A stretch of DNA of 37,828 nucleotides from a virus: the IMG/VR virus record IMGVR_UViG_3300034102_000945, positions 1-37,828 of that record; one strand, given 5' to 3'. Made by a program: the position numbers and the translations under genes. Positions 1,924 to 35,433 of this stretch are shown piece by piece; within the stretch, counting starts at the first letter, position 1; every line of letters starts with the position of its first letter. The notes beneath the pieces were generated by a model, which was given only the letters and a program-made list of their open reading frames with translations, was not told the DNA's origin and ran no database searches.

Positions 1924-2762
1924 GCAACCTTTACGTCCGACTTCATTCGTCGTTCTGGACGCACCGCAAGACGTTGCAACTCAGGCGAAAGCTTGGAGAT
2001 GCAGCGTTCTGGATACCGCCACGCCTTTGGTCATTTGCGGCCGAAAACGCGCCCGATGGAGACCTTAGCAACTACCAAGCAGAGGACCTCGCAATGCTTG
2101 TGCAATACTCGGGCAATGCTCAAGAGATGCTCCAAGCATTAAACGACGCCGGGTTCCTCGAAAACGGCATTATCCGAAATTGGGAGGAACGAAACTCCTT
2201 CCACGTTACAAATCACGACAGAGCCAAAAAAGCGGCAGAAGCTCGTTGGGCAAAGCGAAATGAAAAACTCTCTGAGAAGAAAGAAAGAGACATTGAAAAG
2301 GAAAAGGAAAAGGAAAGTAAGCAAGCATTGACCAAGCAATGCTTGGCTGATGCTCCAAGCATAGAGGTTGAAACCCTCAAGCTCCGCATCGGCTCATGGT
2401 TCGGCCGACGACCGACAACCAACTGGTCCGAAAAGGAAACCAAGGCCCTCAAGGCCGTCATCGCGCTCCGAACACCGCCCGAGGACATCGACGCCTTGGA
2501 GACCCGCTACAAGTCCGGCAACCCATACCTACGCCGCGACATCCTGACCCTGCTCAACAACTGGAACACCGAAATCGACCGCGCCAAACAACCCGCCACC
2601 CAAACCACTTTCGCAAATGCAAACGATCCAATCGCTCGCCGAAACGCTCTCCTCGGAGATGACGTCACCGAACAGCAAGCCGAAGCCTCAAGGAGATCCC
2701 GAGCCATCGACGAAGCCAACCTCCGGAGATTCGAGGCAACTGGCCTCACACCTTTCGACTAA
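1920..2762 (+). CDS. phage replication initiator (O/replisome-organiser type)
   Basis: Product of 280 aa. The N-terminal 85 residues match the winged-helix start seen in phage replication initiators and DnaD-like organisers: a YVRLHSSFWTHRKTLQL-type opening, then WSFAAENAPDGDLSNY, then a helix ending in LNDAGFLE. A lysine/glutamate-rich linker (residues about 110-140) leads to a C-terminal helical domain. The ATG at 1920 has AAGGA upstream and overlaps the stop of the 40-aa frame. It sits directly before a DnaC-like loader, the gene pair used by phages that recruit the host replicative helicase. The A-rich linker DNA holds an iteron-like repeat cluster, as the lambda O gene holds the lambda origin. 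The sequence supports the role well; the exact family is inferred. Confidence 0.8.
   Translation: MSNLYVRLHSSFWTHRKTLQLRRKLGDAAFWIPPRLWSFAAENAPDGDLSNYQAEDLAMLVQYSGNAQEMLQALNDAGFLENGIIRNWEERNSFHVTNHDRAKKAAEARWAKRNEKLSEKKERDIEKEKEKESKQALTKQCLADAPSIEVETLKLRIGSWFGRRPTTNWSEKETKALKAVIALRTPPEDIDALETRYKSGNPYLRRDILTLLNNWNTEIDRAKQPATQTTFANANDPIARRNALLGDDVTEQQAEASRRSRAIDEANLRRFEATGLTPFD
2127..2362. repeat. iteron-like repeat cluster, candidate replication origin
   Basis: ATGCTCCAAGCAT occurs twice (2127-2139 and 2350-2362) and is itself a small inverted repeat. Between the copies lie AAGCATTG (2323-2330) inverted against CAATGCTT (2337-2344), and an odd palindrome CCAAGCA-A-TGCTTGG (2332-2346). An A-rich run, unusual for this genome, covers about 2222-2316. 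All of this is inside the replication initiator gene, as in lambda-type origins. Confidence 0.5.
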
Positions 2763-3345
2763 GAACTGCCCAGCCTTCCGGGCCAAGGTGATCGGCCTAA
2801 ACGAAACCGCGCCGCTATCAAACCGGCTGGCGAAGTTCATCGAGGCATGGATCAAAGCCGCGGCCGCCAACAAGCGGGACAAGGGGACGTGGATGGTGAT
2901 TTCCGGGCCTCCGGGAGCCGGAAAGACCCATTCGTTGAAAGCTGCCAGGCGCTTCCTTGAAAACCACAACGTGGACCTGTGGCACGAATGCTACTGGCCA
3001 AGCCCGCCCGCCATCCTGTGGGCCACTTGGTCCCGGATCATCGCCCTTGAGCGTGACGAGTGGGACGATTGGCTTTACGATCTTCGCCGTGCATCCATCG
3101 TGATCCTCGACGACGTTGGTTCCGAGGTGGACAAGTACAAGACCGGGGAGCCGGCCGAGCGCCTCCGGGTTGCACTAGAGACCTGCGAACGCCGGTGGTT
3201 GCTTATGTCCACCAACCTCCGACCCGACAAGTGGGCCTCAGCCTTCGACCAGCGGGTCAACAGCCGGCTTCAACCCGCGGTGACCCTCGACATGACCGGC
3301 GCAATTGACTTCAGACCGACCAAGAAACCAGCAAACCAACAGTGA
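2617..3345 (+). CDS. DnaC-like AAA+ helicase loader
   Basis: Product of up to 242 aa with a full ATPase core: Walker A GPPGAGKT at about 97-104, Walker B IVILDD at 161-166, a sensor-1 type LMSTN at 196-200, and an arginine-rich DQRVNSRLQ segment at 211-219. This is the layout of DnaC/IstB-type loaders that place the host replicative helicase on DNA. The long frame overlaps the initiator gene by 146 bases and its first 55 residues are low-complexity. The true start is therefore uncertain: ATG at 2617 or 2659, or GTG at 2788. The position straight after the initiator supports the assignment. Confidence 0.85.
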   Translation: MQTIQSLAETLSSEMTSPNSKPKPQGDPEPSTKPTSGDSRQLASHLSTKNCPAFRAKVIGLNETAPLSNRLAKFIEAWIKAAAANKRDKGTWMVISGPPGAGKTHSLKAARRFLENHNVDLWHECYWPSPPAILWATWSRIIALERDEWDDWLYDLRRASIVILDDVGSEVDKYKTGEPAERLRVALETCERRWLLMSTNLRPDKWASAFDQRVNSRLQPAVTLDMTGAIDFRPTKKPANQQ

Positions 3346-35170: not shown

Positions 35171-35433
35171 CTGATATTGAACATGAACTGATCGCCACTC
35201 AATGGGATCTGAAAGCAGCCAAAGATCGCATCAAGCTTTTGGAAAAAGATTCGCAGCGATTGAACTGGCTATTGAATATTTTGGAAAAAGATTCGCAGCG
35301 ATTGAACTGGCTATTGAGTAGGGGTCTTGCTTGGCGTGACTGCTACAACGACTGGTGGAAAGAAGGTGAGTGGCTGTACGCATCGCAAAGTGCGCGCGAA
35401 ACAATCGACAAAGCCAAGGAGGCCATGCCGTGA
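35167..35433 (+). CDS. array protein 3 with 14-aa tandem duplication, 88 aa
   Basis: GTG overlap start. Contains DRIKLLEKDSQRLNWLL followed by a second copy ILEKDSQRLNWLL, from a 42-bp tandem duplication at 35237-35320. The copies are in frame and lengthen the coil by 14 residues (two heptads). Ends KAKEAMP. Confidence 0.65.
   Translation: MTDIEHELIATQWDLKAAKDRIKLLEKDSQRLNWLLNILEKDSQRLNWLLSRGLAWRDCYNDWWKEGEWLYASQSARETIDKAKEAMP
35237..35320 (+). repeat. 42-bp tandem duplication
   Basis: Copy 1 is 35237-35278 and copy 2 is 35279-35320, differing at about one base near the end. The unit is exactly 14 codons, so the frame is kept. Near-identity points to a recent event. Confidence 0.9.

Follow-up and report, generated by a model that had tools for sequence, protein, structure and literature searches.

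Where does replication of this virus begin, and can the start site be read from its DNA? A few model phages and plasmids are known to carry their origins inside initiator genes, and the initial annotation proposed one of this kind in the window (the whole stretch of 37,828 nucleotides analysed here). The record belongs to a tailed phage, since terminase, portal, protease, head and tape-measure genes are present on the 37.8-kb virus contig. All family-matched genes of the window lie on the + strand; no end repeats were found on the contig, which is not closed. The features of the locus are:

1920-2762, + strand: replication initiator gene (280 aa), matching PHROG 9474 'replication initiation protein' and PHROG 3926
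1920-2204, + strand: N-terminal winged-helix-like domain (AlphaFold model, pLDDT block means 79-92 over residues 11-90)
2091-2139, + strand: iteron cluster 1, four half sites in 11-bp phase (ATGCT at 2094, ATACT at 2105, ATGCT at 2116 and at 2127) plus AGCAT at 2135
2127-2139, no strand assigned: dyad 1, ATGCT-CCA-AGCAT, in frame and coding MLQA
2220-2249, + strand: codons of the RAKKAAEARW motif, a candidate determinant of the repeat sequence, from the motif-repeat association
2226-2325, + strand: A-rich linker-coding tract, 51 A per 100, with (GAAAAG)n at 2295-2316; putative unwinding or bending role
2322-2362, + strand: iteron cluster 2, with the CAAGCATT/AATGCTTG inverted repeat, the CCAAGCAATGCTTGG palindrome at 2332-2346 and ATGCT at 2339 and 2350
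2350-2362, no strand assigned: dyad 2, ATGCT-CCA-AGCAT, in another frame and coding DAPSI; the exchange with relative L008 has its border at the last base of this dyad
2370-2759, + strand: C-terminal domain of the initiator, swapped apart from the N-terminal half; putative loader contact
2617-3345, + strand: DnaC/DnaA-type AAA+ helicase loader gene (PHROG 50 'DnaC-like helicase loader', E 3e-11; Pfam Bac_DnaA, E 5e-5)

The repeats named in the initial annotation are real, and form a longer array than it reported. ATGCTCCAAGCAT has exactly two copies in the window (2127-2139 and 2350-2362), and the 13-bp dyad ATGCT-N3-AGCAT, ATGCTNNNAGCAT, has 2 matches where dinucleotide shuffles of the whole window give 0.01, with none in the whole window outside the initiator gene. 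Each cluster terminates in one such dyad, and the half sites are phased at 11 bp, one helical turn (2094, 2105 as ATACT, 2116 and 2127; likewise 2339 and 2350). Set against 5000 synonymous-codon shuffles, the initiator gene holds an excess both of ATGCT/AGCAT (8, with 2.8 expected, p = 0.0006) and of dyads (two, with 0.05 expected, p = 0.0006), and only 43 half sites are found in the remaining 36,988 bp. The 8-bp inverted repeat (CAAGCATT at 2322-2329, AATGCTTG at 2338-2345) and the CCAAGCA-A-TGCTTGG palindrome at 2332-2346 were also found as described, as was the A-rich tract, which has the highest A content (51) of all 100-bp stretches of the window and an A+T maximum of 63%, in the top 0.25%; it codes a Lys/Glu-rich linker, so this composition also has a protein-level explanation. 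The repeats had been assigned to the linker-coding part of the gene, which holds for cluster 2, at the linker-coding end, and fails for cluster 1, which lies within the winged-helix-coding part; the repeats therefore flank the A-rich tract on both sides.

Comparison of the window with seven relatives demonstrated that degenerate codons of conserved residues are variable in 2 of 20 cases within the iterons and in 47 of 97 others (p = 0.001; the count omits codons whose residue changes), and in relative L003 the residues of cluster 1 are altered with the dyad intact. Reduced synonymous change at the iterons points to constraint at the level of DNA.

The gene product matches the PHROG 9474 profile over residues 7-134 (E 4.4e-11) and PHROG 3926 (E 3e-6), and a Pfam search at E 0.1 returned no match, be it to the O family, RepA_N (PF06970) or DUF1376. 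Directly downstream, with overlapping ends, lies the loader gene, followed by a weak SSB-like match (PHROG 18154, E 0.011). In the models, both the window domain (mean pLDDT 73) and a DUF1376 relative (89.5) exhibit a winged-helix-like core, then a long helix carrying the motif peptide at residues 101-110. RepA_N initiators 5kbj, 4pql and 4pta stand at ranks 1, 2 and 4 for the window domain in VIA-align (Z 6.3, 6.1 and 5.5), and RepA_N folds at ranks 2, 3, 5 and 8 for the DUF1376 relative (Z 6.9, 6.6, 6.5 and 6.2; DnaD Z 5.5), modest scores in both cases with unrelated winged helices close behind. Foldseek against the PDB gave nothing at E 0.001 among the folds it lists, profile comparison of the window N-terminal domain with DUF1376 gave no similarity (probability 0.5%), and neither a PDB sequence search nor a DNA search in annotated phages returned anything useful; a DUF1376 search in three genomes had no result, its controls being silent too.

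Relatives of the initiator are encoded at 75 viral loci, many of them related in one half only. The DNA of the window and of L010 is 90.5% identical to position 1911, has no match at 1912-2374 and is 84.6% identical from 2375, whilst L008 is 89.4% identical as far as the last base of dyad 2 (2362), unmatched up to 3340 and 88.7% identical from 3341; L007 resembles L008, with a break at 2368 and the match resuming at 3345. Read from these alignments, the N-terminal domain and repeats are swapped as one block in L010, which has no dyad, and the C-terminal domain and loader are swapped as one block in L008. The repeats travel with the predicted DNA-binding half of the initiator, as expected for an origin. 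At L012, L014, L032 and L047 approximately the first 73 residues of the C-terminal domain match and the locus holds no match to the window loader, so this domain may contain a further exchange point. Block exchange of this kind has a precedent in plasmid pPR9, in which ~500 bp spanning the N-terminal domain and origin were exchanged relative to pSK41, and which replicates (PMC5703833).

The DNA-level repeats, reduced synonymous change, cassette borders and adjoining DnaC-like loader strongly support, by comparison, the earlier proposal of an origin within the initiator gene. Taken whole, 2091-2362 is very probably the phage replication origin, contained in the very gene whose product, the initiator, would bind it, with clusters, A-rich tract and loader acting as follows. 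Dimers of the N-terminal winged-helix domain would occupy the 13-bp ATGCT-N3-AGCAT dyads as well as the half sites set at intervals of one helical turn; a filled cluster on either side of the A-rich tract would assist in its melting or bending. The initiator would then work through its C-terminal domain with the DnaC-like loader coded downstream, which would place the host DnaB helicase and let the origin fire. Cumulative GC skew, the check suggested in the initial annotation, went the other way: it falls through the site with no turn there, to a minimum at ~34.3 kb, a weak test here because the family-matched genes are all on the + strand and the contig is not closed.

A site unmarked by GC skew also suits a reading in which initiator binding at the repeats mainly serves autoregulation or replication control (titration or handcuffing) and replication starts elsewhere, and iterons, as in iteron plasmids, often serve control besides initiation. 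We consider this improbable, as the sites lie inside the gene, far beyond its start, where they adjoin the A-richest tract, they co-move with the DNA-binding half in exchanges, and no ATGCTNNNAGCAT stands outside the gene in the window.

The predicted origin can be compared with known systems. In lambda, the helicase-loader gene P lies next to O. The lambda origin lies in gene O, where four 18-bp dyad-symmetric iterons adjoin a 39-bp A+T-rich region on one side only (PMC6022878). The window shares with it dyad-symmetric iterons within the initiator gene, an adjoining A+T-rich stretch and a helicase-loader gene directly downstream, but differs in its 5-bp half sites in 11-bp phase and in its two clusters flanking a purine A-rich tract, and no sequence relation of its initiator to the O family was found (Pfam, E 0.1). 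'Lambda-style', as the locus was at first called, therefore holds for layout and proposed mechanism and not for descent, the best solved folds being RepA_N at modest Z. RepA_N plasmid initiators (pSK41, pTZ2162) have Rep boxes within the rep gene, in linker-coding DNA, bound by the winged-helix N-terminal domain (PMC5703833, PMC7145576). As in RepA_N and pPR9, the window has repeats inside the initiator gene, and an N-terminal domain and putative origin that form an exchange block. RepA_N entries are among the best-ranked structural matches of that domain, at a modest Z of 5.5-6.3; the window differs in the missing RepA_N Pfam match, the repeat sequence, the linker motif and the adjoining loader. 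Many DUF1376 (PF07120) phage proteins of the 'primosomal protein I'/YdaU type share the linker motif and the ATGCT arrays of the window, although the window N-terminal domain is not detectably DUF1376.

Scans by DNA repeat alone matched initiator genes with other N-terminal domains, which have the peptide [KR]AxxAAxARW in common. When two dyads 182-212 bp apart were sought, 37 loci were found, with a strict peptide, [KR][AS]xxA[AS]x[AVTI]RW, in the dyad-spanning frame of 30, a near form in one (L177) and neither in six; 22 of the 37 lay outside the previously collected contigs (15), with the strict peptide in 15, the near form in one and neither in six. Protein-only scans with the peptide left out of the query gave both peptide and dyad at L118, L132, L137-L139 and L144-L149, and neither at L119-L120. 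Among 13 named phages reached by a DUF1376 query, both occur in one (a Leptolyngbya phage, L152) and neither in 12, including YdaU of the E. coli Rac prophage, which has no motif and no arrays. Among 16 further named phages the strict peptide occurs in none; near forms are found in L193 (with a dyad), L201 (with half sites only) and L198 (with neither). In a first set of 118 CDSs, redundant and partly selected by DNA pattern, the strict expression had been present in all 36 dyad carriers and absent from all 82 non-carriers, but as an exact predictor of the dyad it was broken by 80 new loci chosen by protein only, where an exact dyad occurs in 10 of 23 loci with the strict peptide and in 32 of 57 without. 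The 32 mostly have Gly variants (e.g. RGKAGAEARW) or ARY endings, and the 13 strict-motif loci without an exact dyad count against the origin reading, though most of them have several half sites.

We reduced 214 CDSs to 103 representatives (80% clusters, genes <150 aa dropped) and applied a broader expression, which was fitted on these data after the strict one failed, so that its counts are not independent tests. Where it is present (55 representatives), a significant excess of ATGCT half sites over synonymous shuffles occurs in 47 and a dyad in 43; where it is absent (48), the figures are 5 and 2. Once the window and L007 are removed, along with 11 representatives for which DNA pattern had guided the choice or the seeding, a dyad is found in 30 of 42 motif-bearing representatives. 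Phasing is shared too: ATGCT pairs at 11 bp number 50 (6.3 in shuffles) and ATGCT-AGCAT pairs at dyad spacing 75 (4.5 in shuffles).

These data also bear on two other readings. The coincidence of one exchange border, that with L008, with the end of dyad 2 could mean that the repeats are not targets of the initiator and instead form a hot spot guiding recombination between phage modules; however, the repeat sequence changes along with the linker motif, an exchange site should be common to both partners, yet L010 has no dyad, and in 22 of the 55 motif-bearing representatives dyads lie on both sides of the motif codons and not at a border alone, so we regard this as very unlikely. A codon- or protein-level artefact, in which repeated peptides yield repeated DNA, as the recurrence of NAPSI and MLQA might suggest, is already contradicted by our results and scarcely credible, since a single DNA word encodes different peptides in the three frames, which hold 50, 20 and 8 of the 78 dyads in the 103 representatives (MLQA, NAPSI/DAPSI or GCxxH-like), exceeds synonymous shuffles in most motif-bearing representatives and persists in L003 despite residue changes.

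A second word can be set beside the first. AACCCA repeats occur in 8 of 11 representatives of GGRPKK type versus 2 of 55 of the ARW class, a count to be read knowing that Asn-Pro-rich linker peptides favour in-frame AACCC and that the shuffles control for this only partly. Among DUF1376 representatives, the ATGCT excess occurs in 39 of 46 with ARW and in 0 of 7 with GGRPKK, and AACCCA in 2 of 46 and 6 of 7, respectively. Where the N-terminal domain is of another type, ATGCT goes with ARW in 9 of 9 and with GGRPKK in 0 of 4, and AACCCA with GGRPKK in 2 of 4. It is therefore the linker motif, rather than the family of the N-terminal domain, that the repeat word follows, and the notion that every DUF1376 gene has ATGCT arrays was dropped, as DUF1376 genes with GGRPKK or other linkers are without them. 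Two more N-terminal types with other linkers have ACGCG-type words (4 of 5) and CTCCGA (2 of 2). Initiators that share one repeat word and one peptide motif thus have N-terminal domains without detectable sequence relation, and a second motif pairs with a second word. At L009, L028 and L062, initiators starting MRIRTIKPEF have many CACGCG words, partly phased at 11 bp, a third repeat class on the same C-terminal domain.

The survey suggests a motif-to-repeat code for initiators. We would give an even chance to a transferable form of it, in which a short patch in the helix just after the winged helix sets the 5-bp word of the origin regardless of N-terminal family, [KR]AxxAAxARW reading ATGCT and GGRPKK reading AACCC in the same one-turn phasing, so that phages would swap N-terminal domain and origin as one cassette and could switch origin specificity via the patch. 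The link between peptide and repeat may also reflect shared descent instead of contact. A literature search covering few subscription papers found neither the dyad pattern nor DUF1376 together with 'replication origin', and, by the openings of abstracts, no DUF1376 paper on origins; with that coverage, the code may be in print elsewhere. With the motif-word pairing, one could predict origin choice, incompatibility and module exchange for uncultured phages and test the predictions on purified proteins. It may be possible to foresee start sites from sequence and, if the code is true, the origins of thousands of uncultured phages would be readable in this way.

Some further observations concern the phage and its relatives. 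L152, L193, L198 and L205 have a replicative helicase gene, not a loader, directly after the DUF1376 initiator. L118 is a contig from a Verrucomicrobiota bin whose N-terminal domain is 60% identical to that of the window, a match too weak for naming Verrucomicrobiota as host. The window at 33.7-37.8 kb holds a series of small ORFs whose products, from their translations, have a RIKRLEEAGD-like peptide in common and are apparently tandem paralogues, and at 35237-35317 a perfect 42-bp tandem duplication (1.9 copies) inside a small ORF doubles a coiled-coil-like peptide.
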